Shown piece after piece: positions 4,005-62,493 of a stretch of DNA of 64,000 nucleotides. The position numbers and the translations under genes are program-made. Position 1 is the first letter of the stretch. Each line of letters starts with the position of its first letter. The notes beneath the pieces were generated by a model that made no database searches, had not been told where the DNA came from, and worked only from the letters and a program-made list of their open reading frames with translations. The DNA is from Arcuatula senhousia. Taxonomy: Eukaryota; Mollusca; Bivalvia; Mytilida; Mytilidae. Location of the stretch: the NCBI GenBank assembly GCA_963971305.1, contig OZ020313.1:20967260-21031259 (forward strand), in the 5' to 3' direction.

Positions 4005-4376
4005 CTATTTATTCATTATTTTCTTGACTGTTTTTAAAACTTTTGCATCATTGGCAGCTAAATCCCTATAGGAAAATGTTCTTATCACATCCTCCATGGA
4101 AACATTCTTATACCTTTGTCGGAGAAAATACACACAATACCAGCCACACGTGTCGGTGTCGTAAGGTTTAATACGTTCAGTAAGAGTATAGTAGCTCAGT
4201 CCGTTTTTCTCTAGAATATTGCCGAAATGACGATAGTAAAAATCCGGTGTGCGTCCCATGGGATCAAAAAACTCTGGAAGTCCGTCGGACGGGAAGTGAA
4301 GGACTACCCACTGAGCTGGACCCGTGTTCACGATGAAACTGCATGGTCTTAATTCTTGGAATCGAAAGAGGTAAAT
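4005..4376 (-). pseudogene. Adenain-like (Ulp/C48-like fold) cysteine protease fragment, probably from an old virus-like or Polinton-like element
   Basis: The minus-strand frame contains LRPCSFIVNTGPAQWVVLHF, FFDPMGRTPDFYYRHF and DTCGWYCVYFLRQRY before a stop at 4005. The layout (Trp-Val-x-x block, Phe-Asp-Pro-x-Gly block, then Cys-Gly-x-Tyr-Cys) matches adenovirus-type and Polinton-type maturation proteases, whose triad is His-Asp/Glu-Cys. Where the family normally has His before Trp, this copy has Gln, so the catalytic His appears lost. There is no good start codon; the frame is open back to about 4376. It is a relic or fragment; the host or viral origin cannot be settled here. Confidence 0.6.
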
Positions 4377-4384
4377 CTTTAGGA

Positions 4385-4706
4385 CGGTATGTAGCGACTA
4401 GTAAAAGTCGTTATAACGAGAAATAAAAGTCGTAACAATGAGAAGTGAAAGTCGTAATAACGACTATTTTCTCGTTATTACGACTTGTTTCTCGTTATTA
4501 AGACTTTCACTTCTCGTTATCACGACTTTGGCTTCTCGTTATTACGACTTTTACTTCTCGTTATTACGACTTTCACTCCTCGTTATTACGACTTTCTTTT
4601 CTCGTTATTACGAGTTTCATTTCTCGTTATTACGACTTGTTTCTCGTTATTACAACTTTCAGTTCTCGTTATTACGACTATTTTCTCGTTATTACGAGGA
4701 ATAAAA
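4385..4706. repeat. TTCTCGTTATTACGACTTT foldback minisatellite
   Basis: About 13 copies of a 21-25-bp unit containing CTCGTTATTACGACTT. The first three units (4403-4460) are in the opposite orientation (GTCGTAATAACGAG), so the array can fold back on itself. The two open frames across it are simply the repeat read in two phases. Confidence 0.9.
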
Positions 4707-4870: not shown

Positions 4871-5178
4871 TCAACTTTGAACTTGATTCATTGGAAATCT
4901 AGAAGTATCGCCAAGAGTAGCATCCCAAATTTTTTTACTGTCATTCCCTTTTTTCGAAGATATTGCAAAGTTAGTTCTTTGGTGTACAGGAACTCCAAAC
5001 ATGGCTGCTCCAAGGTCTGAACTGAGTTCTGCAAGAATTTTAGGATCTTTGTAGTGTGTAACTGCTTGGGCCATGGCAACTGCTCTCTCAGGAGGGTTAG
5101 AACTTTTAAAAATACCGGATCCTACAAACACACCATCAACACCAAGTTGCATTAGGAGGGAAACATCAGCGGGAGTCG
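4871..5178 (-). CDS. PDX1: PDX1 exon 6 (last): phosphate-binding loop, C terminus and stop
   Basis: After the acceptor TTTTTTTCGTTCCAG the exon reads [21 protein letters not shown] then [18 protein letters not shown] and [32 protein letters not shown] is the C-terminal phosphate-binding segment of the barrel. The last 40 or so residues are unlike bacterial or plant tails and end VQS before TGA. The C-terminal tail in this family covers the active site, so divergence there may matter for activity, but I cannot judge that from sequence alone. Confidence 0.96.
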
Positions 5179-8100
5179 CTGGAACGAAAAAAAGAAACAT
5201 TAGAACATAGTAGGGACATCAAAGCCAGGAAAAGTCATTTCGTTTGTACAAAGTCTTCCTTCAGTGTCTATTTTGAGATGTAAATCTGAAACTTTCAATC
5301 AGAGATGAGCACATGCAGATGTTGGTTTGACATAGTGGTCCTTTGCCGGATTTGACCGACACTAAATCGATCGATGGCAACGCGACGGATGTTGTACAGC
5401 GAGCAGGATCTGCTTATACCCTTCTGATGCACCTTAGTTGACTTCTTTTATTGGTTTTTAGCTCACCTGACCCGAAGGGTCATGTGAGCTATTGTCATCA
5501 CTTAGCGCCCGTCGTCCGTCCATCCGTCGTCCGTAATCTTTTTAAAACGTTAACTCCTCTGACACCATAATTCCCATTGCAACGGAACTTGGTATGGTTG
5601 TTCATTAGCATTCGGTGCTTAGAATTAATGTGGGGTATTTTTGATTTGTCGTAAAACATGGCCGCCATGGCTAAAAATAGAACATACATTTGTGTGTAGG
5701 GGTAAAATGCAGTTTTCCGCAAATAACTCAAAAACGTCTACAGATATCAAAATTGGCAAAAGTGATCAGCCCCTCAAGATCTACCTACCCTGAAATTTTG
5801 AAGAAAATCCAACCCATTTTTGCAAATTTTGCACCTGTTTAGCTCAATATCTTGAAAACTATACATGATATTTGAGAAATTTAAATTGCAGATTGTAAAG
5901 CACATCAGGATCTAATTAATATGTATATGATCAACGTTGTAGGACCTTTCCTTTTAGGAGAAATTGCCCATAGAACGTCAAAATTTAGCATTTTCACAGC
6001 ATTTTCTCATTGCATTGAAAACGTTAACTCCTCTGACACTTGAAATCCAATTGGAACCAAACTTGGTACTGTTATTTATTAGAAGTAGGTGTATAGATCT
6101 GATGTGGGGATTCTCGATTGGTCGTAAAACATTGCCGCTGTGGCTAAAAATAGAACATAGAAGAAAATTGCATTTTTTTGCAAATCACTCAAAAACGGTG
6201 ACAGATATTATAAATTTTGATTGAGAACAAAAGTGATCAGCATTTCAAGATCTACCAGCTTTGAAATTTTGAAGAAGATCCAACAACCCATGTAGGGGTT
6301 ATTGCCCTTTTTGTGATTTTTCAAAAATCGATATGAGATATTTAATAAATGTACATGATCTACAAAATATGAAATAAGGTCAAGATTGTAATACTGTTCA
6401 TTTTAGGGGTTATTCCTCTTAAAAGGTTTTAATTGCTAAAATATTACTCTGTACAATCATTACTTCATTAAGTTAAACATATTGTCAGATGACCCCCTTA
6501 TTAAAATTATGACCCTTTCAATGTCAGATAGATTTTGCCTAATTACCTATACTTCAGGCACATAAGTCAGGTGAGCGATTCAGGCTCTTGGGAGCCTCTT
6601 GTTTTTATTATCGCTTATATTGTTGGTTGTATCGCGTACACTTATTCCACACCTCGGTATCTTCTATCTGATTTCGACTCGGGTTCACGTTGATGATCGT
6701 GATTTTGGTTGTAATATGTGTTTTTTATGTCCTGTGTCAATTTTTGTGTGTGATGATTTTAAATTAAACCTGTTCTATCTTGGCCTTTTCGGATTTACGA
6801 CATTCAAATGTCCGAAGGTAATCCTTCCTCCCAAGGACATATGAGAAGAAGAAGTAATAAAATAGTGGCTTTTTAGTGAAAGGACATCAGATAAGACTTA
6901 GGAATACAGCAAAGGACAAGGTACAGTAAGGGCCATATGTGCCCCCCCCCCTTATTTAAGGAAAAACAAATCCTTTGTAAATGATTTACATATCATTAGG
7001 GTTTCAAATTAGATGATTAAACATTTTGACCATGGTAAACATTTTCCATCATCTACTGTAATTTTAATTTTATAGAGGCCTAAAGAAGTGCAAAAGTAAC
7101 AAAATCGTCGAAAAATGTCATTTTTCATGCTTAATGATCCGCAACAATGTAGACCATGGATTTCTCGACTGATTTATAATCATTTTATATATAGTGCAAA
7201 TTAAAGTTGATAAACAAGAACTGTGGTCTTAGTAGTCGCTGGCATCTAAAAATTGAAAATATTAAACAAATATTGTCCTTTTTCCACGAATTTGAAAGAA
7301 ATCATACATATTCACCATGTTTTGACAAGCAATATCAAATAAAAAGCATAAAAAGTTCTTTTAAATTCAGTTGTTTTACATATATCTTCTTCATACATTT
7401 GACTTGATAAATAACAAAATGACTTTTCCCTAGATCAGTTTTCTATTCTTTAGTCTAAGAGGGGGCCAAATACGGGCCTTACCGTACCTTGTCCTTTACT
7501 ATCCTTTTCGTCAAAAATTTATTGTAAAAAGTAAGCCTGATGAATGAAACAACAATTCAGCTAGCTATGGCGAAACTATTTATTTCGTTGAAAAGACGAT
7601 TGCCTGCAGAAATCACATCTACTGAACTGTGCAAATATGTTGTCTATAATAAAGTTCAGCCTTTTGATTATTTTCTCTTATGTAGATTTGTTCCTTGTAG
7701 TGAAGAAAAAGATTAGCTTTCCAAAAAAGATAGTATCAGGCCTAAAAAGCATCTAAATTAAATTAAATTAAAAAAAAACAAAACATTTTTTTAGTTAAAT
7801 TTAAAAAAAAAACGCTAAAAATTATTTATCTCAACATCTTCCATGTTACATGACATGTTTATAAGATATTCTATATTCGAAACAAGAGTTAACATCAAAG
7901 TATGTCTCGACTGTCGGCACCATCAGAAACAATAATTCTTTCTAACTTCTTCCATATTTTGCAATTATAAGGATTTTCAGTTTCTCAGATCAAAAGGTGT
8001 TTATATAACTTAAACATTGCTAATATATGCAATAAAAATAATCAAAGTCACTCAACCAAATAAAATCAAGGTCAAGGCCAAAAGATGGGAATGCAACTGT

Positions 8101-11100
8101 GCTAAGCTACTACTGGGGCTTATGCATACCAAGTTTCATTAACCTAAGACTTATAGTTCTTGAAACATGGAGGTGCTCGAAAAACCTTATCCTTGCTATT
8201 ATGTATTGAAAATTGTCAAAGTCACTCATCCGGAAAATAATGGCCATGGTCAAAAGATGTGGATGTGACAGTGTTAAGCTACTACCGGGGCATACAAATA
8301 CCAAGTTTTATCAACCCAAGACCTATAGTTCTTGAGATATGGAGGTGCTCATAAAACCTTACCAAAAAAGTTAACGCCACCGCCGCCGGTTAAGTAACAC
8401 CTGTGTCCCGCTCTGCTTCGCAGACAATAAGCTAATGCCTAGTCATTTACTAATTCAACGCCTAATTTTTTTAGGCATTGGGCTTATTTCCTGAAATCAT
8501 AATGTCCAAATTCTATCTATATCATAGGCAATAGCAAAATAAAGAAAGATCTGAAAGATAAATGAGAAATTACATTTTTATGAATGTTTCTGGGTTTTTT
8601 ATTATTATCTAGAAAACTTTAACACAATAGAACATCAAATCGGTCTCTAACCAAATATTGCCCAAAGTAACTTAAACATTGAGTTTCGAGTTAAGTTAAT
8701 ATTTTTGAACTCTTCAAGATCATTATCTTTATTATACACTGGTTTTAAGGGCTCATGACCAAAGATGATGTGAGCTATTGTAATCATTTTTCGTTTGTCG
8801 TCTGTCTGTTCAAATTAAAACCAAAATATGTCCAAAAGACATATAATGATCCATCTCGCAACATTTGGGACGGACGGGCAAAATGAACAGAACACTTTTT
8901 GCCCGCTTCTTTCGTAGGTGGAGCATAAAAAATCTGCATCTCATTAACCAGTTAATCAAGTGTCATAAACTTCGTTTAAGTGTTGGTAAAGGTGTATTGT
9001 AACAAAAAATTGTTTGGATTTTTTAATTCAACAATAACATAACCACTGCTGCTAAATATTAATAATATCTTAAGGCTAAAACCAAGCTTGAAAGATTTTA
9101 ACTAAAACATATATATAATGGATCAAAATAATACCGAATAATACGGTCGTTGTATTTCACTCCCTGCAGTCGCAACATTACACTGCAAGAAAGATCGATT
9201 AAAAAAAATCGATCTTTTTAAGTCTATGTCTAAAGCAGGACTGTTTGAGTCCGGTTCTTTTTGAATCAATTCAAATAAAGATCGATCTTTCCCGTTTACA
9301 CTGACAAAAAGATCGATCTTTTTTGCATCGATTCAAATAAGATCAATCTTTCCGTCTAGTGTAAACAGGGCCTTAGATACATATATTTGTACCTAGAAAT
9401 TTCAGAATCGTGGAGATTCTAGTTGTAGAAGGTTCTTCTTCAATGCATATGTCTACAGGTAAAACATTGCAAGAGGTTGATCATCAATTGCACGTGCAAT
9501 TACGTTGATAAATCTGATGAAAATTAGAGAAACAGATATTTGTTCCTAACGGCTTTTGCATTCTTTTTTGAAGAAACAACAGGCCCAGCTTTTGTATTGA
9601 AGTTAATGTAATTTTGAAATACAATACAAGGATGAAATATTATCATTCTTTTTGTCGACAGAAAGGTCTAAGGGGAATATGACAGGTTTATGATTATCGA
9701 TCTGTCTTTTGATGTTAATAGGAATAACCTAGTACAATTCATATCAACAACACTTTTATTTACCTAATCCACCAGCAGCAAAATTAACTACCGGTAATCG
9801 ACCAAGATCGGCTGTCTTTTGAAGGAGATCAATGGGAACACGCAATTCTTTTGCATAAGCAAACATTTCTGTGGAGTCCATTGCTTTTGCAATGTTGATT
9901 TGCTTTCTGATCGTTCTTGCGTGACGAACAGCCTCTGATACATCCCCCGTTCCAGCCTCCCCTTTCGTTCTGATCATGGCAGCCCCTTCTGAGATTCTGC
10001 GCAATGCTTCCCCAAGATCACGTGCTCCACATACAAAGGGAACTTTAAAGTCATGTTTATTCACGTGGTTTTCTTCGTCTGCCGGTGTTAAAACTGAAAT
10101 AAAGAAATATTATAATGTATCTTACTGAATGAAGCAAAAATGTTTCAGACTCTTAGAGTAAACAAGAATGTGTCTAAAATTAGGACATAATGCCCCATCC
10201 CGCAACATTTATTTTACCCCACAATCACCAAACGATGAAGTGGATTCCAAGAGTATACTTTTATGATGATTACATGATTTATAAAGTTTCAAGACACCAT
10301 ACTTCCCTCATGGTAAAGTAACTTCAACCATTAAATAAACCTAAGTATAACATCATCTTTTTATGATCAATCAGTCATGAAGTTGAAGAGACCATTTTTT
10401 ATGATATTTTTTTTCGTTCATATCCTGATGTATATGTGTAGAAAGTTTCATAAAGGTTCATGAAGTTCCATTATGATAACTAACTTCCTTCATGATAAAC
10501 TAACGGACGAACAGACGCGAACACTATATGCCCCTACTTTCGTAGAGGTAGTCTCATTGACTGATGACGTAGGCGGAAGTTCATGTTACTCATTCTCATT
10601 ATTTTAATATCCATGCTAGGGAACGGACGTGTCGAGTGCGACACGTCATACTGTAAGTTTTCCATTTTATTTGCCTTGGTGGCTATGCATTTATATTTTA
10701 TAGGCCTAGGTGGCCATGCACTGATAATTTATAGGCCTAGGTGGCCGTGCACTGATAATTTTAAGGCCTAGGTGGCCATGCACTGATAATTTATAAGCCT
10801 AGGTGGCCATGCACATTAAGGCCTAGGTGGCCATGATATAGACCTAGGTGGTCATGCACATATAGGCCTAGGTGGCCATGAACATATAGACCTAGGTGGT
10901 CAAGCACATATTGGCCTAGGTGGCTATGAAAAGATATTTCATGAAATAAATATTGAGTCACATGTGTGCAGGTTTTTTGCGTAGAGAAAAGCTTAGAACA
11001 TGTATAACTTTAAAGACAATATATGCCAACAAATTTTAAGCAAGCATATGAATAATAGATAAATGCTTATTTGTGAACATAATGTCATTGTGTATTTTCT

Positions 11101-14100
11101 ATTTCAAGGACATATAACCTTGTTGTATTGAATGAAGTTCACGTGTCGAGGACTGTTTTGATTTGGTTGAGTAAATTTAAATATACACCGAACATGTGCT
11201 TGATTATTAGTTAAAATTTACAAGTATTTATTTTGATTTCAGAGATGAAAGTGTTATAAAAGAAGAGGATTACTTTCTGTGGAAATACTTGAATTCAATT
11301 ATATGATTGAGGTTAGTTAGTGTGTTTTATCCAACGAAATATTTATAATATTCAAATTATCTGATCTTTGCATTGTTTTTGAAAGATATCCGTAGTGTAA
11401 ATGCATAATAAGCTTGTTCTGTTGGCCAATACATGTAGCAGTTTAGTCTTGTAAGTGCCGTCACGTAATTTCTTTTCGAAAACTGTTTCGTTAGTTGCTT
11501 AACATTATTATCCGAATTCATTAAGAAAAGAAGAAATAGTTATACATGTACAACGGACATATTTAATTATATAACATGTTTAATATATGAAATATCTTAA
11601 TAGGCTAAGCTTGTTAACAGAATATAGTATTGTTACTTTCAGAGTAACATAAGGTACGGAATGGCAGTGATCCCGTTACGCTGGAAAAGCATTAACCCAG
11701 AGATGGAAGACAGAAATGAAAGCCAAATTAGACAATGTGAATGATATAGCAATCTAATATAACAATAGACTTAAGGGATCGTTATTTCATGTTAAACGAA
11801 TGTTCAAGGCAAATAAAATGAAATAATTAAAATGTGTACTTTGTTGACATGTTAAATGTTTTATACAAATTGCCCTAATTCTTGTTTGGTATTGCTTTCT
11901 TTGTGAATTTCCTTTCGTTAGCAATTCAAGGGACACTGATGCCCTAGTGGGTTCGCTCACGTGAGTTGCATACGAGGGGATTTTCTCCTTTAGGTGTTAC
12001 AAAATTGGTATATACTAGTATTTGAATTAAACTGGTCTTTAGTAAATATGATTTTTATTCCATTTATTTTGCTTTAATGTTATATTGTTACACACCGATA
12101 TGATTTTCATCTAACTATATAATAATAGGGAATCTCAGGAACTTGTTTACACTTGAAGGAGAGATCCCTTCGTTTTGCAAACTCACGTGCAGATCGGAAA
12201 AGAAACTTGAAATAGTGGATGTTATACCTTCGCATGTGTCAGACTTAGATTTGTGTTGGTGCTTAATATGAGATTGTTGTATAATGATCGCAAAAGCCAT
12301 TACAATCAGTTTGTAATGCAGGTTTTATTAAATAAACCCTTGTCCTTGTCATATCGTGTTTATATGAGGTGTTTTATTTTATTTTTTGAGTTTTGGGAAA
12401 AGAGCTAAAGGTGGTTTATTGTCGTTTCGTTATGAAATTTGCATCTTGTAAGCTGTCGAGTTTTACTTCCCATAACTTAACATGAACTGAAAGCATAGAG
12501 ATAGCAGACACTGAGGATATGGGTATAGTCTCATTGACTGATGACGTAGGCGGAAGTTCATGTTACTCATTCTCATTATTTTAATATCCATGCTCACGGA
12601 TAGACAGTAGATGTGATGATTGTCATACACGTCAGTTACAGCGTCACTTAGCTTAGATATGAGGTGGTTTCCTTACCCACCCTTCCCTCCCTTTAAAACC
12701 AATAGATGGGTGTTTTAGACAGAGATACACCAAATGTGGACAATTTGTTAATATATTAGCAATATATACATATTTTGCCTTGAAGAAATTTTTTATTGAC
12801 GGAAAAGTAAAATTTATGACATCGAATAAGAATTGGTGTAAATTGTCCACATTTTGGTGTACGTATCTTTATGTTTTCAGTTCTACACTTCGAGTTTTAC
12901 TTCCCATAACTTAACATGAACTGAAAGCATAGAGATAGCAGACACTGAGGATATGGGTAGGACATAAAAACGTGGCTCATTTGATTTCAGTGAAGGTCAG
13001 TGAATTAGATCAGCAGTCATGTTGAGCTGAACGGTAAGGAATACATAAAATTCACATAATCAGTATTTGCATAAGTGACTTTTAATCTGGTGTTTACATT
13101 TTATAATGTGAAATTTTTTTAAACTCTAACATTACGCATCATTGACATCTGATTTGTTATTGTAAACATGTTGGATGTTTCGATTAAATTATTGACCATG
13201 CATATATTTGTTGTAATCTTATTTCAATGGACCCGTGCGGGTGCCGGTGGCAAATAGACACGCAGCAGCGCTAAGCTTGTCGGTAAAAGTCCACTAAAAA
13301 GGGTTCAGAAACCTGACATCGGGTCAGGCGGCTTCGCCCATAAAAGAGACTGGGATGTGTGCCTCAGGTGGTTGAATGGGGCAGCCTTGTCATAATGAAT
13401 GCCGGGTTCGTCAGGCTAAAATGCGGAAAACCTGACTGCAAACTATAGTAGTGCACCGTGTCGGGGAAAATGTCACGTTCCTCGCACGTAAAAGACCCCT
13501 CCTGCAGGTCACGGTAGAGTAGGACTCGTAGGATCCCCATGCAGAAGACTAAATTGCTCGTCCCTACCCATCACCCCTTTTTTCAGTGGCAGTCAAAACT
13601 CTCCTTCCAGATTAGCCTTGTGTCTTCTTCATAATTTCATGTTTATTGTATCATCCCCTTTCATGCTCATCTCCCGGATATAGCCGAAATCGTGCAAATT
13701 GAGGGGGGTGGGCAATAACTTATTTACTAACTAACTAAATAATTTTAAGTTATTTCAATGGCTTGATTTTATTGGGAGCCATACATACTAAAGTTACGAA
13801 TATGTGTTTAATGGCTTGACCCTTGACTCCTTTCTATATGTCCATGATGTCTAGGCAATGAAAACATTCGGTAGTGCATGGTCTCCATACTCCTTTTTTC
13901 GCAATTGACAGGCTATGTAATAACTGATTCGATTGTCACTAAATATATATATTTCGTTGCTATAGCATATATATGCTTTCTGCAAATAAAGCTATTCATT
14001 CATTTAGTCAATAACCAAGACTTATACCTTCAGATTCATCAACCATATCTACTCCTAGAGCCTCCAGTATTTGTGCCTCTGCAAAGTGTCCTATTCTACA

Positions 14101-17100
14101 TTTAGCCATGACTGGAATCGTTACTGCTTCCATTATAGCGTTGATTTTCTGTTCATTAAAAATTAGTGAATAGAATTTAGTTGTACATCTATATTCTCTA
14201 ATAACTCGAAAACTGCAAGCTACTCACAAATAAATACGCCCACCACACTCCCCCTAAGATAAATCAGATCATGGAGATCAGATCAAACTAACACCCATGT
14301 TATATGACAAAGATTTTTAAAAGTTTTATGAAAATCCACTGTGTCGTTTAAAAGGGGTTGTGGATAAGAGATGGGTACCATTTGTCGCTTAATGGCAAAG
14401 TCCAAGTTCTGCAATGGTGACGTTAGCCCTACAAAATTCTAAAATAGGATACATGCACATCTACATTATGTCACAAAATTGTTTGAACGATGGAAGCACG
14501 AATGTGAAAATTTCAATTTCGTATTAAGTAAGTCCCGAACTTGCTAAAACTAAAAACCTCGCCCGAAGAGAGTGCGCTTGCAATCGAAAGTTTGCCGATT
14601 GCAAAAGAAGCACATACAAATATCTGCGAACCAAATAAGAATCTGGAACAAAGGTGTAAAATTGGATTAACAAGAAGCTCCCAGGAGCCTGAATCGCTCA
14701 CCTGGTCTACCCTATAAAGAACTTTGTAGAGCTAAATAAGCTGAAAATTTAAGCAAGCAACAGCTTTTCTCTTTCATCAATAGTTTTCATTCTGTAGGCC
14801 AAAAATGTGCAAAATATTATTCTAAGGTCCGTCTGAACACCTTGACTCTATTAAAACTTTTGTTAAGAGCTTAATGAATTGAACGTTTAAGCAAGCAACC
14901 AATTTTCTTTATCTGCTATAGTTTTCATTTTATAAGCCAAAAACATGACAACATGTTAATTTAGAGGCTGTAATCCCTATAAGGGGTCATCTGACAACTT
15001 CAACCCTATGAATGCTTTTGTAGAGCTAAATGAGCTGAAAATTTAGGCAAGCAACAGCTTTACTCTTTCTGCAATAATTTTCATTCTAGAAGCCAAAAAC
15101 ACTATTTTTCGCCTTTAAGGGGCTGTAACCCCTATAAGGGGTCATCTGACAACTTTGACCCTATGAAGACTTTTGTAGAGCTAAATGAGCTGAACATTTA
15201 AGCAAGCAACAGCTTTTCTCTATCTGCAATGGTTTTCATTCTATAGGCCAAAAACATTATTTTTCGCCTTTAAGGGGCTGTAACCCCTATTAGCGATCAT
15301 CTGACAACTTCGATCCTATGAAGACTTTTGTAGAGCTGAACTGAACATTTAAGCAAGCAACAGCTTTTCTCTATCTGCAATAGTTTTCATTCTATAAGCC
15401 AAAAACATGACAAAACGCTATTTTTCACCTATAAGGGGCTGTAACACTATAAGGGATCATCTGACATCTTCGACTAAATGGAGACTTTAGGATGTGGACG
15501 GGGGTTTTAACGTCATGACGTCGCAAGGGGGTGGGGACCTCAAACATGGAAAGCTTTGAGTGACATGTCAAATTTTGAATATATCATATATATACATCAA
15601 TAGAAAGCCAAATTTATCAGCTTTCTAAAGATACAGACAGTTGTGACAAATTAGCAATCATTAAAAATAAACAATCCATTGAGTAATGTCCTTTTTATGA
15701 CAATTATATGGGGAAAAAAGCACAACCATTGCATATTTGAGGGACTGAAAAATATAGAATGGACAAAAAAACATTTTATTTTTTTAGTCTAACTTGTAGA
15801 GATAAAGGTCTTCTCTTTTTTAAGTCCACTTTCAGGGTACGATCGCCGTTTTTTAAAAACAGCATTTTACTTCGTGTAAAAAACTTAAATTTACCTCTCT
15901 TTGTAAACAGGAAATTCAGTGATTATCCCCCTTTGTACACATTCACTTATTTTATTTTTTTAAATAAAAATCAAACAAAAACTTACTTTATCTTCAAAAA
16001 TAAATTCCAAATTTTATAATTGATGCAAAAAAAATTCACATTTTAATCATTACTACCATAAATAGCAAGGGGGGGCCCCCTGTACCTATTTTTAGCCATA
16101 TGTAGACCGTTGGATTTTATACGAAACTATGGACCACATCCTTAAAGCGCGTTTTAAAATTCACATTTGGTTTTTTCTTATTCCCTGTACAATAACGAAC
16201 AAAATGGTACCAAACTTTTATTCGTCCGTCTACTAAAAGCGAAGATATAGCAATTACCATATACTGTGTCGAACCAAGTTTTTAACCCATTTCATGCATT
16301 CGGATACTCTGAAGACAGAAGAACCAAAAACTGGATTTTCATATCTTTACTTCTTATCAATAATGGTCTTAATAGATTTCAGTTGATTGCATTGAAATAA
16401 AAGTCATATTTTAAGGCCATAGACACTACCTTTTCCAATAAAATTCAGCCATACAACAGTGACATGACCTGCATATGAGAAAGGCTTTCCATCAATAACA
16501 AGGAATTAGAGTCCCTTTTCCTTGAACATACAAATTTAATGCAGATTATGCTTTTAAACATTTCATATCAAATATGCGACACTTTGTAAGAAAATTTGTA
16601 CCGAACAAACCAATGCTCTCAGCTTCCATATGTTGCAAGAGGTTCAAAAAAGAGAGTGGATAGACTGAAAACCATGGAACGTCACAAAATCACATAACGA
16701 CGTCATATTTGACGCAATGACTTTACAATATCATCCTGGTTGCTACGGTGTTCTTTTGAATATGACAAATAATACAGACTAGTTTCCCATTACAAAAACA
16801 GAATATCATCCTAAATAAATATTTTTATGAAAAAAATGAAATCTGTTACGAAGCATGCTTGTAGTCTCTTTACTTTCAGTATATGTGCATTAAGGATGTG
16901 GACGGGGGTTTTAACGTCATGACGTCGCAAGGGGGTGGGGACCTCAAACATGGAAAGCTTTGAGTGACATGTCAAATTTTGAATATATCATATATATACA
17001 TCAATAGAAAGCCAAATTTATCAGCTTTCTAAAGATACAGACAGTTGTGACAAATTAGCAATCATTAAAAATAAACAATCCATTGAGTAATGTCCTTTTT

Positions 17101-25239: not shown

Positions 25240-25285
<46 letters not shown>

Positions 25286-44334: not shown

Positions 44335-44394
44335 CTTTCTCTGTTAAGCTTCATCATAGAGAATCTCTTATTTGCTGTTGACACAGCCATTCTA

Positions 44395-44452
44395 CCAGTC
44401 TGATTAAAATACAGCCCCCTGAAAGTCAGGGGGCTGTATTTTAATCAGACTG
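44395..44452. mobile_element. Tiny perfect foldback element 61 bp upstream of the PDX1 start, 8-bp flanking duplication
   Basis: Arms of 27 bp (44396-44422 and 44426-44452) are perfectly complementary around a 3-base loop; the tip is CAGCCCCCTGA-AAG-TCAGGGGGCTG. CCATTCTA stands on both sides (44387-44394 and 44453-44460), the size expected of a hAT-like target duplication. It lies in the 5' region of PDX1 and would form a very stable RNA hairpin if transcribed in the leader. Confidence 0.85.
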
Positions 44453-44460
44453 CCATTCTA

Positions 44461-46900
44461 GGAAACATTACAGGAATTAAGTATTGCGCAACCGGAAGTC
44501 AAACTGTGACAGAATTCAAACTTTGCTGGACTATGATTGGATCATAATATCAAGACTGGATTTTCAATGTATGTTTTTAAGATTTTAAATGGATGTAGTT
44601 TAATAAAATAAGAATAAAATTTTCCACATGTCAGATGGATATTTTTTGTTGTTGACTTTTTAACAGGTCGAAGATTTTACCTTTTAAGGATAATGTTTTC
44701 GTCAAACTTTTAACCAATAGTGTTTGAGAGAGTAAAAATAAATACGATCGCCAACACGTGCTTTTTATGAAAAAATTCAATATAACATTACTCGCAAAAC
44801 AAATCTTTAAAATGAGCGGTGAAAAAATTGGTTGTTGTATTTGTTTTAATGTCATATTAAAAATAAACATATTAAAGAAACACTTTTTCACCCAAACAGC
44901 TTTGACAAGTAGGGAGATTTTATGGCCATGTTTACCTTTTTGATTGTCCATTGACCAATACACTAAATAAAATAGAAGTCAATAAGTGGAACATAACATT
45001 ACTTTATAAGGAGAATTTACCCATGTTAGACAAAATAACGTTTAAAACCAATTATATTTGGTATTTTAGAAATATGAGCGAGGAAGTGAAAGAATACATG
45101 TTTATGTTAGGAACTTTTCTATCAAACCGACGAAAAAGTTTTACCATTTTTCCCCATTTGAAAGGTCAATCTATTACAATTTTGATTGATTAAAAGGTCA
45201 AACGAAATCTAGAAAACCCGACCTGTTTAACAAGGATGAAATTTTCATAAACACCGGAGAAAATTGTATGTAATCATCCGCCAGCTGAACTCGGCATTCA
45301 ACAGCTCTCTCAAAAGGCGGTCAACATATGATTTGACACCACTTATTCAATGGAAAAAAACGTTACACCATATAGATCGATTTAATGTTATTTACACCAA
45401 ACACTCTTCAGGGAAAGGTTGAATGTTTGATTATAAAGGGGAAGCAATTCCCATCATGTTCCCTTTACAACACCAGACGACAACAATGGATGTGAGCGAA
45501 TTAATCATTGGCTCAAAACATGTAAATTCTAAAATATCGACCAATCAAGGCAATCAAAAATATAAGTAAGTACGGATTTTCCCTGGCACACGTTGAAGCT
45601 TACACAGTTGACACAATTTTGCAACAATCTGAAAAGTACCCTTTAAACCAATTCAAATCTAAGTAATTTACAGTCATATAATAAAAGCTGTTGTTGGCTT
45701 ATTAAATGACCGATGAAGCGAGTGAATTTCAATATCACGGTGACCGGTGATATTCCTTATAATGTTAAAAGCATGTTCTTGGTATAGGAGAAGTTTCAGA
45801 TAACAAATGGATACCCCTTTGTGACGTTTGTCATCAAACGGCGAATCGTGGAAACCCAAAAAAATCTTCTATAATTGTTAATTAGCAAGGGATTGCTCCA
45901 TCACGCCTAATGCTGTGCCATCGAGTGCGGTGCTTTACACTGCTTCAACAGGCACAGGTGCGGTCATCAAATTAGAAACCCACAATTTAATCAAACAATG
46001 AAATAATGTTATTACATGTGAAAAGCAGGAAACTTAAAGAAATGTTAAAATAACATACCGTTTAGATTTTGCGACATGTTTTTAGTTGTCTTTCCAAGTC
46101 AGGAATGACCAAGTCACAACCGGATGGTATTAATGTTTATTGTCTTGCGGTAACACGAGGTTTTTTTTTACTTGCTTAAATTGATATTATGAGACAAAAG
46201 TCTTCCTTTGTTGATTGTTTTTTCATAAATGTATTACAAACAAAGTTAGTATTTTTCAATTTTTTACATAAGTACAAATGCGTTAAATCTTATGGTATTA
46301 TTTTATTAAAACCCCTTTAGTGGACCCCATTATTTAGGACGGTCAATATGTTTTACTTTATGTAAGTTTTGTTTGTAAATATTTTACGTAAATGTTTTAT
46401 GTAAGTACAAAAATATAACAGGATATAGACAATTTTTAAGAACACCATACGGTAAGGAAAATAATTAACTATTTTTTCCTATTTTATATTATTTAGATTT
46501 GATAAAGTCATAAAATGAGCTGCTACAACAAATCATCAATTGTAACAATGAAACGGCATGCCCAATGAAACTAAGCCGAAAACTTTAAAATCAAATTCAA
46601 TTTTTTTTTTAATGAATGGCATCAGAGATTATATCAGAACAAACTTGATTTACTAAATGAAAATAATAAGACATCCTTATATAAAAACATAAAAAGAATT
46701 TTATCTTTTATATAAAGATTTTGAATCAAGAAGGGTCATCACAAAACCATAGAAAATATGGAAAGCCAACGGGATCAAAATTCTTAATTCGTAAATTGTC
46801 AATTTGTAACTTGTAACTGTGTAATTTCCACGGGGGGGTCACTTCCTATATAAAGGTATAAGACATAAGACATTATACATAATTTATTTTCCAATTATGG
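44461..46900. other. Unassigned intergenic stretch upstream of PDX1
   Basis: The promoter of PDX1 should lie at the low-coordinate end. I see no convincing TATA box, CpG-rich segment or gene. Frames at 44631-44963 and 44951-45193 are AT-rich chance frames. Confidence 0.4.
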
Positions 46901-47325
46901 TCCCTCAAAGGGCAGCATCATTACAATGATGAATAAAATAAAGTATAAGATTATAATAAATAGATTAGCTTAATGCAGATAATATATATATACTTGTTCA
47001 AAGCGTCTGGATACAAAAAGGACCAATATTTCATTATGCTACAATGATAAATTACATATATATAATTGTATGCTCTATTATAGGGCCCTTAATTGGAATA
47101 AAGCTATTTCTATAACATAACATAAAATATCTTTTATTTCCGATCAGGAGCCCACTAGGAGCAAGGAGAGTTGTACATGTAGAGAAAAAGAACATAATTG
47201 ATATATAGATTACACATAAAATACAATAGACAACATGGTGATACAATCAATATACAATGTACAAGATGTTAATGTTGATCAATGTCCATATATTGAATAC
47301 AATATGTCATTAATAAAATATTAAT

Positions 47326-47547
47326 TTAATAAAAAAATTCTTTATCCAGTATAAATCTGGCAGTGGCAGTTAGTACATCAGTGTCCTCATTACTAAGTAA
47401 AGATATCATTTTGGAATTGTTTGATAGACTAGAAAAATTGGGATACTTTTGGGCAATAAAATTAAATAAAATATATCTTTTTGTTTCAAATTTTGAACAA
47501 ACACATAAAAAGTGTGTTTCGTCTTCAACTTCCTCAGAAGATTCTCT
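47326..47547 (-). pseudogene. C-terminal fragment of a non-LTR retrotransposon (LINE) ORF2
   Basis: The minus frame reads VEDETHFLCVCSKFETKRYI then FNFIAQKYPNFSSLSN and ends KEFFY. The E-D-E-x-H-F-L-x-x-C-x-x-F/Y pattern with a following ISL/LLS block is the post-RT cysteine region of CR1/L2/Jockey-type ORF2 proteins. Upstream it is cut by a MITE at 47548. A 3'UTR-like part continues to about 46960; a 50-bp piece (TATGCTCTATTATAGGGCCC) of 47067-47120 recurs at 47987-48038. Confidence 0.65.
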
Positions 47548-47708
47548 CAGGCCTGGGCGCCACAAAACATGAAAAATTACTCAAGTCTGAGAATATTCTC
47601 AACTCATTGTGACGTCATAAAATTAGAAAGTTTTGATTGGAGTCGCCATGGAAATTAAGAATATTCTCAGATATAAGTATTTTTTAAACTTTGTGGCGCC
47701 CAGGCCTG
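47548..47708. mobile_element. MITE with perfect 19-bp terminal inverted repeats
   Basis: CAGGCCTGGGCGCCACAAA at 47548-47566 and its exact complement at 47690-47708; 161 bp in total, with an inner pair GAGAATATTCTCA / GAATATTCTCAG. Confidence 0.9.
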
Positions 47709-47815
47709 CAGATCTAGGTGTATTGGAGAAACGCCCTATTTCAATTTCCTATGTCTATGGGCTGATATTCGAAATCAACAGATGGCTTTTCTTTGATCAG
47801 GGTTGTTTATTTTCT

Positions 47816-48200
47816 ATACATACAGACGTGCCACTATACAGACGTGCCACTGGAATGGGTCTGATTTTTATGCCTTGAAATATATGATTGGGTATCAAAT
47901 TATAGCTAACATCATAAATATCAATGGGTCGTAATTTTTAAATAATTGAAAAGTCACATTTCTATCATTAAGCTTCCAAAAACTAATTGTATGCTCTATT
48001 ATAGGGCCCTTAATTGGAATAAAGCTATTTCTATATATACAGACGTGCCACTATACAGACGTGCCACTGGAATGGGTTTGATTTTTATGCCATTTGGGTA
48101 TCAAATTATAGCTAACATCATATATATCAATGGGTCGTAATTTTTAAATAATTGATACATGTATGTCACATTTCTATCATTAAGCTTTCAAAAACTTAAG
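47816..48200. repeat. Duplicated block, about 150 bp x 2
   Basis: TATACAGACGTGCCACTATA ... AATGGGTCGTAATTTTTAAA occurs at 47816-47960 and again at 48038-48155. Within each copy CAGACGTGCCACTATA/G is itself doubled. Confidence 0.85.
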
Positions 48201-49860
48201 TTGTTGCACATCATGCATCTAACCACAAGTATTTACTTTCGGATGGAGCTGTAACTGATGATGTTTAAATTGGATGCCCTGTCATCAAAGATGTCAGATT
48301 TTATCTAAGATTTTTAAAACTATTACATGGTGTTATAGTTCAATATCAACACATGCAATTAATTTAATATAAATATAGAGGGAGAATTCCCTAAATTCCT
48401 TTCACATTTTAAATGTTCATAACATATATGTATGGGTAAATGGGTATACATTTTCTGTTTTTTAACTATATGAATGGGGGTGTTTTTGAAGTGCTGGCGG
48501 CACCTCTGTACCAGAATTCAAACGAACTCTTTGCAGTCGGAAATCGACTCCAGATCTTAATCAAAAGAAGAAGTGACCCCCCAACCCCGTGGTAATTTCT
48601 ATAAGTTCTTAATTCGAAAATTGCCAATTTGTAACTAGCTTGTAACTGTGTAATTTCTAAATTCTTAATTTGTAAATTGTCAACTTGTTACTGTGTAGTT
48701 CCTACTCTTAGGGACTGGTCAATATTTATTGAAGTGATAGGACCGGTGCAAATTGTAGTAGGACACATACCTTTTCCTTTGAAAATCTTGATAGCGCCAA
48801 AACTTTTTTTCCATCAGGGCAACTTTTTTTGGCGAAAAAAAATTTGCGTTAGTGTTTACCAAAAATCAAAAGTAACTAGCAAATAGAATATTTCATAAAA
48901 TTTTGGAGGTGCAAAATTTAGATAATTGTTTTCACTTTGATATAGCAAAATATAGCCAAAAATAATTCTACCCAACAAAGTTTATTTGTATTAGGAGTAT
49001 AAAGAAATAAGCATTGATAGGACATTAACTTTTTTTTCATTACAACATATATAGGACATTTATTTTGTTGTTGTTGCTTTTTTCATATGTAGGACATAAA
49101 CTTTTTTCGCTTTTGAAATTTTAAATGCCCTAATAAATATTGACCGGTCCCTTATATCGTTAATTGTCAATTTGCCACTTGTAACTGTGTAATTGTCAGG
49201 CCTCGGGCCTGACATATACGGTTGTAACCATGCTTATAAATCTGGGTACCTCTCAAAAATCCACGAATTACTAGCTGACTTATGTTGCATTGAGAAAGAA
49301 AGTAAAATTTTAAGATCTTCCCCCGGGGGAGTTACTCCGGTGTTTTATGACGGGGATGTGCATTTTGTAGATTGAAATTGGTACCCAAATCTATGTCAGA
49401 AAATCGTCAAAAACATACCCAAATCTATGTGATTAGCAAAAAAAACCCATATCTATGTAACGAAATAAAAGTCCATCAAGGTTTTTTTCATTTATTAGAG
49501 CCTTACAAAATTAATTACAAGTCTCTTTCTTATTTAAAATGACATCTTAACTTCGTAAAGTATCCCAAAAACACAAAAGACCCAAGTCTATGGCACCTTT
49601 TCTGTTTTGACTCTCATGTCTATGTAAGACATCAACAAAAATGGGTACCAAATCTATGTGTACTGCTTAAAAAAAGATACCCAAATCTATGTAAAAAAAT
49701 GTGAAAAATGGACCCATAAAAATTGCACATCCCGTATATTGTATATAGGGAGTAACCCCCGGGAATCTTCCCTACCAAATTAATATTTTGTATGCTTCAA
49801 AACGGTAAAGTTTTTTTACCTTTAATATACTTTTAAATATTTTCAAAGCTATGGTTTATG
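48201..49860. other. Intergenic stretch, no gene
   Basis: 49390-49700 has short irregular repeats of ACCCAAATCTATGTA. A block TATGTTGCATTGAGAAAGAA at 49282-49325 recurs at 49933-49976. Otherwise nothing. Confidence 0.5.
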
Positions 49861-50273
49861 TCAGGCGACAATTTATATCGAGCTGTCGCCTTAAAACAAT
49901 GTAACGGTGTCGTTTTGCATGCTGACTGTTACTTATGTTGCATTGAGAAAGAAAGTAAAATTTTTAGATCTTCCCTACCACGAAAAGAGGGGGGGGGGTG
50001 TTCCGATCAGAAAATTATTTTCCATAAAGGTGTCTCGAGACTAATTTTTGTTTTCATTATTAACATAATTTTATATGACAGAAAAACTTATTCAAAATAT
50101 TTTTAATCTCTGTAACTAAAACACTTTTATCAAAATTCAGATTCATAATATATATTATTTTAGGAAAACACCAACTTTGATTTAATAACAATAGAATTGA
50201 AAAAAAACTAAATTTGCAAAACGACACCGTTATATTGTTTTAAGGCGACAGCTCGATATAAATTGTCGCCTGA
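49861..50273. mobile_element. MITE with 59-bp terminal inverted repeats
   Basis: TCAGGCGACAATTTATATCG ... CGTTTTGCA (49861-49919) recurs inverted at 50215-50273 with one mismatch. The interior has no ORF of interest. Confidence 0.9.
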
Positions 50274-51740
50274 AATAAACAATAAATAAGTTATAAGTAA
50301 AGAGTAATGTAAATATTTCACATAAGTCAAACGCAAGTGACCTAAAGTAAAGTCTAACAGGCCAAAAACAAGAAAACGTGATAAATTGGTTATAACTTTG
50401 TTTTCAATAATGTATTATAACTTCTTTTATGTTGGTTTAAAAAAAATACCATTGAAATGACTTAAAATCATAAAAAATATTGATTCTAAAAAAAGAAAAA
50501 GTGACCTTCACATTTAATGATTTTAAAAATAAAACCATATCGGTCAAACCATTACAATCCGCACATGGACATCAAAAATGGATTTTTTTTTGTAAAACGC
50601 TGTTTTTTTATAAAATCCTAGAGGTTTTAATATTTTTAATCGTTGACCATTGTATCTAGGTGAATCTTGTCGAGAAAATTTTACCTGTGATAAGTGCGAA
50701 GTCATAGGAAGACATTTGCAAATTGTAATAGGGAAATTTTGAACGTAATAATTAGCAATTTTGATTCTAAAAAATATCTTTTTTAGACATTGTTATGATG
50801 AAAATTCTTTTTCTAAGTCAATAATCCCTATGCATACTATAGATTTATAAAACAGTAACTTAAGTTTTCAACCCCATATTCAGTTCATTGAAAATAAATG
50901 AATGACTACTTTTCAATTGCTCACCAGAGGGTCCAGAAAAATGATTTTTACGCTATTTTCCACATATTCTATACAAGTATAACATTTGGAAATATGAAGC
51001 TAAGATGTAATACTTAATTTTTGTACCATAAAAAGTCGGTCTACGGGGGTATCCACTCAACTTTTAAATATGACGTCTTTTCAGAGTTGGCTGATGGACT
51101 AGTATAGGAGTATGGTCAGCATATAAAAGCAAGAACGTATACAGCTTAGAATAAGCAGCAATTTCTTCAGTGTGCTGAATTGTAATTATTTGACAAGCCA
51201 TCATCTTATGAATGAGAAACAAATGCATCAGGATATTTTAAGAATAATGAGAAAAGTAGGGGTGAAAGGTTTTCACTTTTGCATTTGCTTACATATTATG
51301 AAAAATTTTGAACATTTTATCGTCAATATTTGGAGCTAACAATTTATGCTACAGGGCTAATCTATCTACAGTCAAAAGCCTTGCGAAAATGGTCGAAATG
51401 TTTTATTACATCTTGCATAAAAATATAAAATAAGACTGAAATAGTTGCACATATTGTTGCATATACATTTTTTTTTCTGAACGCTGCTCGTTCTTCACGT
51501 ATGCCATTGTATTTCTCTTAGTAACAATTCTGTTTATTTAATATTGTTGTTAAAAATCCAAACCATCGCAATTTATATATGCCCTTGTAGTTGTCTTGAC
51601 TGTCGTGATACCGTTTTGTAGATTGAAATAATAATACCTGCAGACCAAAAATCGGAAATAATTTCTGTGTAAAAAATAAGTTAAATAACTTTACAAATTC
51701 ATCCCGGCGTTTTAAGAGTACGGGAGCCCATAAGTGCTAT
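50274..51740. other. Unassigned intergenic stretch
   Basis: No gene or repeat recognised between PDX1 and PDX2 here. Confidence 0.4.
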
Positions 51741-51744
51741 GTGG

Positions 51745-52110
51745 TGTGCCATAAGGGGTTTAGGAGTAGTTGCGGATAAGAGATGGGCACTCCCATGTAG
51801 TCGAATGTCTAAGTCTATTTTTTGCTATGGGAAACCTCAAAAATCATTCTGGTCAAATTTTAAAATTGAAGGTGCACTTCTTCATTATGTCACAAAGATT
51901 TTATGAAAGTTTCATGAAAATCGATCAAGGAGGAGTTGCGGATAAGAAATGGGTAATACATTGTAGTCAAATGGCTAAGTCCATGTTTTGCTATGGGAAA
52001 CATCAAAAATCATTCTGAACAAATTTTGAAAATTTCCATTATGCCACAAATATTGTGTGAAAGTTTCATGAAAATCAATTAAGGGGTTTATGAGGAGTTC
52101 CGGAACCAAT
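51745..52110 (+). mobile_element. Fragment of the 174-bp pearl-like repeat, two and a half units
   Basis: GGGGTTTAGGAGTAGTTGCGG, CTATGGGAAACCTCAAAAAT, GTGCACTTCTTCATTATGTC; it lacks the ACGG tract and 3' hairpin. Confidence 0.75.
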
Positions 52111-52488
52111 AGATTTCCAATGGGTTGATAGAGTCTATACCACCACAAACATGTCTTGCTACTTATGTACAATGCATGTCGTTAACATGTTTTGTATTGT
52201 ATATTCATGGAAAGGGTAATTAACTTTATGTCCAATCCATTCGCTATATTTGCAATGAAAAAACCTGCCTGTTCCATAAAATATAGCACCTGAGTCCAAA
52301 AATAGCTAAGTTATAATCAATATTCTAATTTGGGGACCAATTTCTGCTCTTATCTTATCTTGTCCTTTTTACTTGGAAGTCAAGAACTTCCAAAGTCTAG
52401 TAATCGATTTCGGAGAAATCCATCCGCGCTTTAGCCCGAGACGTATAACCTATTCTATTGTGCATTCGCTCTCCGGTAAAAGTGTATT

Positions 52489-53253
52489 TTTATACCCCCA
52501 CTCGTATGAGAGGGGGCTTTATTGCAATCACCTTGTCCGTCCGTCCGTCCGTCTGTCCGTCTGTCCGTCCAGTTCAATTTCTCTGCTTCTGCTGGATGGA
52601 TTGGATTTCAAATTTGGTACCCAGCCTCAGCATGATAAGTTATGCTATGCCTACCCTTTCCAGGTCAGTCCATAATCTACTTCCTGTTTTCCAAGCCAAC
52701 TTAGACTTTTTTAGGGAAAAAAAATTGAAATGTGAAATTTTTCGTAACAGATTTCTCGGCTTCTACTGGATGGATTGGTTTCAAATTCGGTACACAGCTT
52801 CAGCATGATTAGTTATACCGTGCCTCCCCTTTCCAGGTCAGTCCATCATCTACTTCCTGTTTTTCGAGCCGACTTAGACTTTTTAGGGTAAAAAATTTGA
52901 AAAGTGTAATTTTTCGTAACAGATTTCTCGGCTTCTACTAGATGGATTGGTTTCAAATTTAGTACACAGCTTCAGCATGATGAGTTATACCATGCATCCC
53001 CTTTCCAGGTCAGTCCATCATCTACTTCCTGTTTTCCGAGCTGACTTAGACTTTTTATGGGTCAAAAATAGACAATTTTTGGTAACAGATTTCTCAGCTT
53101 CTAGAGAAGGGATTGATTTCAAATTTGGTATACAGCTTTAACATGATGAGTTGTACCGTGCCTACCCTTTTCAGGTCAGTCGGTCATCTACTTCCTGTTT
53201 TCTGAATGGCCGAGTGGGGGTATGCTTAGCACGACTTAGTGCAACCCCTTGTT
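52489..53253 (-). mobile_element. Pearl-like element, AACAAGGGGTTGCA family, copy 2 (inverted relative to 34476-35260)
   Basis: Starts TATACCCCCACTCGTATGAGAGGG, then (TCCG/TCTG)n, then four units with GTCAGTCCATCATCTACTTC, and ends CTTAGTGCAACCCCTTGTT. About 18 kb from copy 1, on the other side of the PDX1 start. Confidence 0.8.
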
Positions 53254-53306
53254 ATTTTTTTTGGTCATCAAGCTATCTTATCTATGTTAGTATAACCCCT
53301 AATTAA

Positions 53307-55222
53307 GGTCTTTCCCACTACAGTGGAAAGACCTTATTGTATTTCTTCTGATTATTATTCTTTTTCTTTTCCGCGGTCACTATAACAAAAGTGTCGCGAC
53401 ATAACTTTACGATACTTGGTACCATTATTTGGTCATACCCTGACTCGCCTTGACTGGCCCTGCGAATCCGTTACTATTTTTAGTAACGGAGTTATCTGTC
53501 CGTAACCCCAAAACCTTGTTTGCAGATTAACTCAGAAAACCGTAACCGGTATCAAAATTTTTTTTTCAATCAACCTCCTGGTTACGCGTTTTTGACTCGA
53601 AAAGTGTCGCGACTCGTCAATTTTTTTTTCTTCAAACGGTTAGTCCTAGAGACTTGGGACCTTCACCAATCATCCTAAGTGACATATGTTACATCTAAAT
53701 ATGTCAAGGTCAAAGGTAAAATCTCAAGGTCAGAGGTCACGGTACACCTTGTTTGCAGTATAGCTAAAAAAACATAAATGTAATGGAAAAAATAGTAAAA
53801 TCTTTAAATTTGGTGTTTTTTGGTAAAAATATTGATAATTTGATAGTAACTCTCAAACATTAATCTTTTACTTTTTGACTATTGTATTGTTTCGAAGCAT
53901 TTCAGCGATCAAATATGTCGGTTTTGTATGATGATATAATACTAAATCATTTGTTGTTTGAAGTGTTATGTTGGATTTAGAATCGATATGTTTGATTTTT
54001 TTACATCAATCGATAAATGCTTCTTAGCTAGCTGTCAGTAACTGCGAGTGTTCTCAAGGGAGTTCCTTTACATTTCGTTGTTCTCGTATAGTACTCTTGT
54101 CTCAGGTTCTCTCTTGGTGAATTGAACTTTTATCGATTTGATTTTAAAAGTGTGTTATTTTTGTGCTTTGTACAAGATAAACAATAGGGGGAAGGTTAGG
54201 CCCCAAAAAACTAGTTTAACCCCGTCACATTTTATATGTGCCTGTCCTTAGCCAGGAATCCTTGTCAAAGTTTTTGTTTGTTCTTGTCTACTATCTGTTT
54301 TTTGTTTTTTTTCTGTCCAGAAATGGGTCTTTCTTTGATATTCTAGGGATTTGTTTGAATCTTATGTATTGTATTTTTATTCTTGGGTCAATGCAAGACG
54401 ACGAGCAGTGACCTCTGGTCATGTTGAAGACTGCTGGCTGTTTTCCATTGTGATTTTTTTAAATTGCCGTTTCTTTAATGTTGGTTGTGTCGCGTACACT
54501 TATTCCACATCTCTTTATCGTCTATTCAATTTAAGACCAAAGTCGAATGGTTACAGGCAGCCATTTTCAAAATGGCCGACACCGTAAACAGTTTTAAGAA
54601 ATAGCACCTAAACCGTACAAAATTGAAGCGGACAATACATGGGAAAAATGTTCGCCATGTCGAGATCTACAAAAAACGTTCAGGTGCGAAAGCGTAAAAC
54701 TTGTCGTTTTTGAGTTATCACCCTTGATTCATATTTTTAAAATGATTTTTTTGTTTATAACGTTTTAACCATAAAAGATGGTGAATGAAACATGGGTTCA
54801 TTTGAAAGAGAATTCAATTTGCCAAACATGTATTTTGCCAATAAATTGAAACCATAACAGATAGTATAGTAAACATATATACTTAAATGAATCAGTATAT
54901 AAAGAGCTACAATTTGAGTCCAGGGTCAAAGGTCATAGGTCAAGGTCATTCTCTAGCAACAAGGTAACATTAATGAAAAGTCCATAGCAACCATATATAT
55001 TCTAAACCAAGACTTCTTTCTGAGTTTAGGATGAAGATTTTTCAACCGGAAGTAACTATCTGTCCATAGCAACCGTCATAAAAGTCTTTTTCTGACTTCA
55101 AACTCACTGCTCTTTACTCTAAAACATTTTTCGCAACTAATTATATAATACTATTGTTAAAAACAGACTCAAATAGCCTAACCGAACGTAACTAACAAAA
55201 ACCGTGATGGGAAAGACCTCAC
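53307..55222. mobile_element. GGTCTTTCC hairpin-ended element, split by a Penelope tail
   Basis: Left end GGTCTTTCCCACTACAGTGGAAAGACC is a hairpin; the right end TGATGGGAAAGACC matches its inverted terminus. The interior has TCACTATAACAAAAGTGTCGC and AAGGTCAAAGG motifs. It is split at about 53815-54523 by a Penelope 3' end. Confidence 0.65.
53815..54523 (+). mobile_element. Penelope-like 3' end
   Basis: TTGATAATTTGATAGTAACT through CTTAGCTAGCTGTCAGTAAC, GGGGGAAGGTTAGGCCCC to GTCGCGTACACTTATTCCAC; same subtype as 39775-40310. Confidence 0.8.
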
Positions 55223-55651
55223 ATTTAAATGACTTTTTAATTATTATTTGATTTGTTTACTTATTTCGTTTTTAATGATGATATACTATTTGATTTATTT
55301 TTCATAACCTTTATGAAACTACAATTTGTGTATCACGTGACTTTAGTAACCTGTGCATATTTTAGCGGGAATATACAAATTTTAGAAATTAAAACCATTA
55401 AGGCTTTAGATAAAAGTTAACCAGAAAATACATGTAGTTATATCAATTTCATATCGTTGTAAGATAGCGTGATTCATACATAAATAAAGATATATTTAGA
55501 ATCAGTAATTGCCTTCTTCTGTCGAAAAAGTTATAAACCCAACACAAATCGCTTGCCTTCGTTCAAATGTGACTTCCAAGTACACGGTACCAACGGTACT
55601 TTGATTTCAATATCCCATTGAAGGATTATAGTTTTTGTTACTTTTAGGACG
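55223..55651. other. PDX2 upstream region and likely 5'UTR splice acceptor
   Basis: No element recognised. TTTTTGTTACTTTTAG at 55632-55647 looks like a 3' splice site ending 4 bp before the PDX2 ATG, implying a non-coding first exon somewhere upstream. Confidence 0.45.
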
Positions 55652-56005
55652 ATGCCACATGTAGATTCAGATGAAACAGATGTGATAACGATAGGAATCC
55701 TTGAAATACAAGGAGCCTTTAATGAACATCATGTAGCATTACAGAAAACTCGGACAAGGTTTGGGCTTAAAGGCCTTAACATTGTTTCAGTCAGACAAGC
55801 AGATCACATAACTGACAATATAGATGGACTTATTATACCTGGGGGTGAAAGTACAACAATGAGTCTGTTCTTAAAACGAAACAAAATGGACGAACCTCTC
55901 AGACGTTGGATTAATACAAAACACCATGTAACGTGGGGCACTTGTGCTGGAATGGTTCTTCTCTCTAAACAAACAGAAAACCAAATGATTGGTGGACAGT
56001 TCTCG
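55652..56005 (+). CDS. PDX2: PDX2/SNO pyridoxal 5'-phosphate synthase glutaminase subunit, first coding exon (partial)
   Basis: The frame encodes 118 residues of a class I glutamine amidotransferase that releases ammonia from glutamine and channels it to PDX1. Visible motifs: ITIGILEIQGAFNEH (residues 12-26), GLIIPGGESTTM (59-70) with the oxyanion-forming PGGEST, and WGTCAGMVLL (95-104) whose Cys98 is the nucleophile. The exon ends GGQFS|GTAATT; plant PDX2 has GGQ-x2-VGGLD here, so the next exon should resume with a GGLD-like segment. The His and Glu of the triad and the FG-R/S-Q segment are not in this exon. I searched 56006-64000 by eye and did not find them, so the gene very likely runs off the window. 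CTTTTAG|GACG just before the ATG suggests a 5'UTR intron ending at 55647. The gene is divergent to PDX1. Confidence 0.93.
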
Positions 56006-58758: not shown

Positions 58759-59832
<1,074 letters not shown>

Positions 59833-62451: not shown

Positions 62452-62493
62452 GCGTGTGAAGCGCTTTTCTGGATTAATTTTCATCAGACACGC
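62452..62493 (-). ncRNA. Hammerhead-like motif, array unit 2
   Basis: Same core, but stem II has lost its G-C pairs (AAAUUAAUCCA), so this copy is probably impaired. Confidence 0.5.

Follow-up and report, generated by a model that had tools for sequence, protein, structure and literature searches.

Can a bivalve make its own vitamin B6, and if so, how old are the genes that allow it? Both questions are raised by a stretch of 64,000 nucleotides from the mussel Arcuatula senhousia (contig OZ020313.1, positions 20,967,260-21,031,259; hereafter the window), which carries genes for PDX1 and PDX2, the two subunits of the pyridoxal 5′-phosphate (PLP) synthase that works independently of 1-deoxy-D-xylulose 5-phosphate (DXP). 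A 2021 review states that animals are unable to make vitamin B6, save some sponges (PMC7954711), and a 2009 review that the pathway is missing from most animals (PMC6253932); a search of an open-licence library found no papers on B6 synthesis in molluscs. We propose, and judge it highly probable from the genes and trees described below, that both subunits of the DXP-independent synthase are encoded here, that the mussel produces vitamin B6 for itself, and that the two genes have been linked since before the divergence of molluscs and corals and were kept by common descent. As predicted from the family, PDX2, when bound to PDX1, would hydrolyse glutamine by way of a Cys-His-Glu triad and pass the ammonia to the 12-mer PDX1 ring, where PLP would be assembled with the help of two lysines out of one pentose phosphate and one triose phosphate, the mussel thereby producing its own vitamin.

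PDX1 runs on the minus strand from 46,077 to 4,871 and comprises five clear coding exons preceded by a probable start exon. Coding exon 2 (43,188-43,247), which has AG/GT borders, was found by tblastn with the N-terminus of a relative (P0003; E 4.6e-7 over 104 kb). It is followed by exon 3 (23,297-23,478), with the catalytic Asp in the motif GGIIMDV, exon 4 (14,028-14,148), with the first catalytic Lys in VMAKCRIGH, and exon 5 (9,764-10,093), with the second catalytic Lys; these three match the Pfam family SOR_SNZ with E-values of 4.1e-28, 7.8e-20 and 1.4e-50, respectively, their scores (172.5, 99 and 72 bits, from highest to lowest) standing against a curated cut-off of 27. The last coding exon (4,871-5,178), which ends in a TGA stop, lies outside the SOR_SNZ profile, its sole Pfam match being to ThiG and below the cut-off of that family, and is 79% identical to residues 235-337 of the Mytilus californianus protein. 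Exons 3 to 6 join in frame across AG/GT borders, and the spliced product has 339 residues without internal stops. The candidate start exon (46,059-46,077) reads ATG TCG CAA AAT CTA AAC G, followed by the donor GTATGT, and encodes MSQNLN/G; it came top of 25 mechanical candidates, its 19 bases fit in both length and frame, and it compares with the start peptides MAQKGN/G of P0003 and MSQKRD of M. californianus (P0001). Among 500 sequences simulated by a Markov model for the same 12.4 kb, 14 equalled or beat its peptide score, donor quality not being counted.

Within the family, catalytic roles belong to an Asp and two Lys of PDX1. In the mussel protein these are Asp46, Lys103 and Lys171, in columns that are invariant in 33 relatives, and all 129 columns invariant across the alignment of these relatives are retained. 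The full-length, intron-split gene with its catalytic residues, as described in an initial sequence-only reading of this DNA, is thus borne out, while the numbering given there (Asp45, Lys102 and Lys170) falls one short at each residue. Comparison with solved relatives gave E-values of 3.6e-124 for Thermus 2zbt, 6.9e-124 for Arabidopsis PDX1.3 and 1.4e-116 for yeast SNZ1. A structure was modelled with AlphaFold for the M. californianus relative, and the best of five models reached a predicted template modelling score (pTM) of 0.74, with an alternating strand-helix core where the family would have its beta-alpha barrel. Over residues 41-290 of this model, 21 of 25 ten-residue blocks have a predicted local distance difference test score (pLDDT) of at least 85; the tails are poor, with residues 1-29 below 50 and the blocks of 291-337 between 47 and 65, and the means of the five models ranged from 59.8 to 78.9.

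The two ends of PDX1 carry motifs of their own. The window protein closes with the mollusc tail KIWDATLG (4,910-4,930, minus strand), and IW[DN]ATL is found near the C-terminus in 13 of 18 named molluscs; two more have ICSATF or IWNSTL, two an LW form and one, Gigantopelta, none, such that IW[DN]ATL or a near form is present in 17 of the 18, from chiton to cephalopods. None of the seven named non-molluscs (cnidarians, annelids and a sponge) has any of these tail forms. At the N-terminus, 14 of the 18 molluscs have V[TS]NL; of the seven others, four have V[TSK]NL, and all four are cnidarians. The C-terminus of PDX1 participates in assembly and catalysis; if this is true here, the mollusc tail deserves attention.

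PDX2 lies on the plus strand. Its first coding exon was located at 55,652-56,005 and carries both PGGEST and the GTCAG nucleophile (Cys98), as had been noted from the sequence alone; it matches Pfam SNO with E 1.2e-23 and 84.4 bits against a cut-off of 27, and both PDX2 exons match in a search of the genome. Intron 1 begins at 56,006 and continues past the window end at 64,000, with the last exon beginning 10 bases beyond it (contig positions 21,031,270-21,031,635, plus strand; L004:11-376). A stop or missing residues in this remaining exon would have told against the gene; we found it intact, with the motif FHPE, no internal stop and a TGA end. The spliced protein has 239 residues without internal stops, and the triad is present as Cys98, His209 and Glu211. 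Furthermore, 42 of the 44 columns that are invariant across an alignment of 29 relatives are retained, and among solved relatives the protein matches Thermotoga 2iss_D (E 1.3e-32) and also Plasmodium PDX2. Each gene reads after splicing as a complete open frame, with only the opening 19 bases of PDX1 less than certain (they are probable), and the pair very probably constitutes a working PLP synthase. No second copy of either gene was found, as genome searches with SOR_SNZ, Mytilus PDX1 and SNO matched only exons of this locus, with the best candidates alone being scored, so that distant copies could escape.

The two genes are adjacent and divergently transcribed, in the manner of the fungal SNZ/SNO pair, with PDX1 probably starting at 46,077 on the minus strand (or else in exon 2, at 43,247) and PDX2 at 55,652 on the plus strand. 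The earlier description of the pair as divergent is therefore right, and the word co-oriented that accompanied it is not. The start codons are 9.6 kb apart, and no gene was recognised in the stretch between them (46,078-55,651): none of its 15 open frames of at least 70 residues reaches a Pfam cut-off, and genes of short exons could escape such a search. A single match below cut-off in these frames (E 0.014) was taken as chance. A bidirectional promoter, of which a pair of the fungal kind would be expected to share a short one, is unsupported at a distance of 9.6 kb but possible, as are 5′ untranslated exons.

Is the DNA from the animal at all? The family is distributed among bacteria, and this, with nothing further, is what would favour assembly contamination or a recent bacterial transfer. 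Against it stand introns of up to 19.7 kb, a host contig of chromosome size (57,810,592 bases, or 57.8 Mb, in a genome of 1,036,387,356 bases in 1803 contigs), mytilid-like proteins and the position of both proteins in trees; we rejected the explanation on these grounds and regard its probability as negligible, and the animal source assumed in the sequence-only reading holds. PDX1 is 89% identical to the proteins of M. californianus and M. trossulus, and PDX2 69-70% identical to those of M. californianus (PdxT-like; 69% over the whole protein) and M. edulis, as would fit a mytilid or close kin distinct from these three species. Among the matches listed, a scope that applies to all statements on named relatives here, molluscs and cnidarians have named copies of both genes, while annelids and a sponge do so for PDX1 and a brachiopod for PDX2. 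Of the 69 rows in the PDX1 tree, 33 form a clade (support 100/93) that unites sponge, annelids, cnidarians and molluscs, and consists of the window protein, 21 other animals and 11 further rows; the annelids fall outside cnidarians plus molluscs, and the inner order does not match species relations in every detail. Of the 54 rows in the PDX2 tree, 32 form a clade at 90/90, in which the window protein and four further rows stand with 27 other animals, all of them molluscs, cnidarians or a brachiopod. Both window proteins are sister to Mytilus and nested in the molluscs inside the animal clade, and neither nests in a bacterial clade; this position therefore counts against a recent bacterial transfer. 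Since the animal copies form a clade, reaching the sponge for PDX1, descent within animals looks vertical. A viral origin found no support, as a scan of viral contigs with M. californianus PDX1 gave six pattern matches, of which none was confirmed.

The linkage of the two genes also looks old. As judged by eye from equal sizes of the longest contig of each protein cluster and from locus tags, both genes are apparently on one contig in 12 of the 15 species named for both in two lists limited to 120 matches each: M. californianus, Liolophura, Patella, Lottia, Littorina, Saccostrea, Mactra, Babylonia, Gigantopelta, Mya, Dreissena and the coral Desmophyllum. The shared contig is 120,330,192 bases long in M. 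californianus and just 83,982 in Saccostrea. Two further genera are listed under different species names for the two genes; Haliotis has the same contig size for both and Octopus differing ones, which brings the count to 13 of 17. The limpet Patella (SNE40_003453/003454) and Desmophyllum (OS493_004432/004433) have consecutive locus tags, those of Mactra (ACF0H5_015605/015607) are two apart, and in one EukProt organism the genes are gene14415 and gene14416. Because so many species share a contig and the tags are consecutive in limpet and coral, these observations support a linkage of PDX1 and PDX2 that would predate the split of molluscs and corals.

Several points weigh against the proposed reading, and we gather them here. 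Of the PDX2 columns without variation among 29 relatives, two are changed here (Ile to Val and Lys to Met), and conservation is lower in PDX2 than in PDX1. Annelid or sponge PDX2 is absent among the best 120 matches listed, and the PDX2 animal clade is unstarred at its support of 90/90. Three of the 15 species (Potamilus, Acanthosepion and Nematostella) have no matching contig, which fragmented or different assemblies may explain. Linkage in the other species rests on contig sizes and locus tags, not on gene maps, and these are silent on orientation. Finally, 46,059-46,077 is only the probable start exon of PDX1.

Whether the pair was retained from deeper ancestors or transferred early is the point that the sequence-only reading had left open; apparently vertical descent within animals (the PDX1 clade at 100/93) bears on the younger part of that history. 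For the older part, one explanation is that animals, at their base or earlier, acquired the operon from bacteria in a single event, outside the fungal and plant line, and then inherited it vertically, the nearest bacteria found for both subunits being Chloroflexota, mainly Caldilineales. The closest prokaryote PDX1 in a genome scan is from a metagenome-assembled genome of Caldilineaceae, at 77%, although that scan relied on six short peptide patterns and so favours look-alikes; the organism-named bacteria among the 120 PDX2 matches listed are Caldilineaceae, Caldilinea or 'Chloroflexi'. The PDX1 tree keeps animals apart from Arabidopsis PDX1, but a tree in which animals, yeast and Arabidopsis are forced into one clade is not rejected (p value of the approximately unbiased test, p-AU, 0.342), in a tree where yeast, on a long branch, and Arabidopsis are the sole eukaryotes outside animals. 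Gene order speaks against capture as well: among 46 bacterial loci, some cut short, pdxT was located in 30, every time on the strand of pdxS, and the divergent order of the mussel is therefore no simple copy of an operon. We hold such a capture to be unlikely, if far from negligible. Another reading, to which we give less than even chances, is that the divergent pair ranks with the oldest functional gene pairs surviving in opisthokonts: it would have stood head to head since the ancestor of fungi and animals, been kept in sponges, corals and molluscs and jointly lost in many other animals, and be still linked here though introns and repeats stretch the locus to about 60 kb. In sponges the SNZ/SNO pair is reportedly head to head too.

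An intact synthase need not supply the animal with its vitamin. The genes could be weakly expressed or serve another role, such as a response to oxidative stress, with B6 coming from food and salvage; a review ties PDX1 to oxidative stress (PMC6253932), and an exon resembling pyridoxine phosphate oxidase (PF10590, E 9.7e-15) lies on another contig (C13:9,515,411-9,515,572), so that salvage probably coexists with de novo synthesis. The salvage kinase PDXK, sought through PF08543, gave no match in this genome and a match in 14 of 14 control genomes; short exons can escape the search, and a real absence is possible. Retention of the catalytic residues and of every invariant PDX1 residue, and the keeping of both subunits by molluscs and cnidarians, argue against such a change of role, which we regard as improbable. 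De novo synthesis of B6 by the mussel is the reading that we prefer.

Repeats and possible mobile-element remnants lie within and beside the genes. Inside a PDX1 intron, a frame of 302 residues (29,738-30,646, minus strand) has a weak match to reverse transcriptase (PF00078, E 0.0087, below cut-off), and a fragment at 849-1,235 (minus strand) appears by eye to be related to it. Just downstream of PDX1, a frame of 130 residues (4,005-4,397, minus strand) without a Pfam match resembles, by eye, an adenovirus-type or Ulp1-like cysteine protease of mobile elements. The PDX2 intron holds a CTGT microsatellite (58,808-59,452; 161 copies, 99% matches) and a tandem array of a 384-base unit (61,975-63,443; 3.8 copies, 95% matches), the peptide of which recurs in near form in the downstream loci L005 and L006, among the chance matches of a tblastn search.

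Databases already carry named copies of both genes across molluscs and cnidarians, which the sequence-only reading did not know, so the mussel pair is one more example of an ability that is real and has received too little notice. Dietary B6 may be needless for whole groups of animals, and an intact, linked pair in a mussel makes this idea directly testable, just as the age of the divergent pair and de novo B6 in molluscs become plainly testable. This bears on the nutrition of farmed bivalves, on models of vitamin supply by symbionts and on how other animals came to lose the two genes of the pathway together.

Among the closest known systems is M. californianus, a mytilid in which both PDX1 (SNZERR-like, P0001) and PdxT-like (P0241) are annotated, 89% and 69% identical to the window proteins. 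The sponge Suberites domuncula has SNZ and SNO, an animal pair like that of the window, and the title of the work on it (Seack et al. 2001, as cited in PMC7954711) names gene structure and promoter activity. Cyst nematodes (Globodera, Heterodera) likewise have an adjacent pair of B6 genes, side by side on one scaffold, which two papers attribute to bacterial transfer (PMC4054857, PMC4901422), unlike that of the mussel. The bacterial pdxST operon places the same two subunits next to each other, co-directional there and divergent here. The proposed likeness to fungi agrees with published gene orders: yeast SNO1 (YMR095C) and SNZ1 (YMR096W) stand in a list of head-to-head genes (PMC3303733), and Table 1 of a 2010 gene-order study (PMC2871058) gives SNZ1/SNO1 as divergent and conserved in 12 species from the groups 'Fp Fs M Pr', where the table legend gives M as Mammals, which we take as a slip for Metazoa. 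In the same study, conservation in fungi is highest at intergenic distances of 100-1000 nt, and the mussel pair, divergent like fungal SNZ/SNO, differs from it in a spacing of 9.6 kb.

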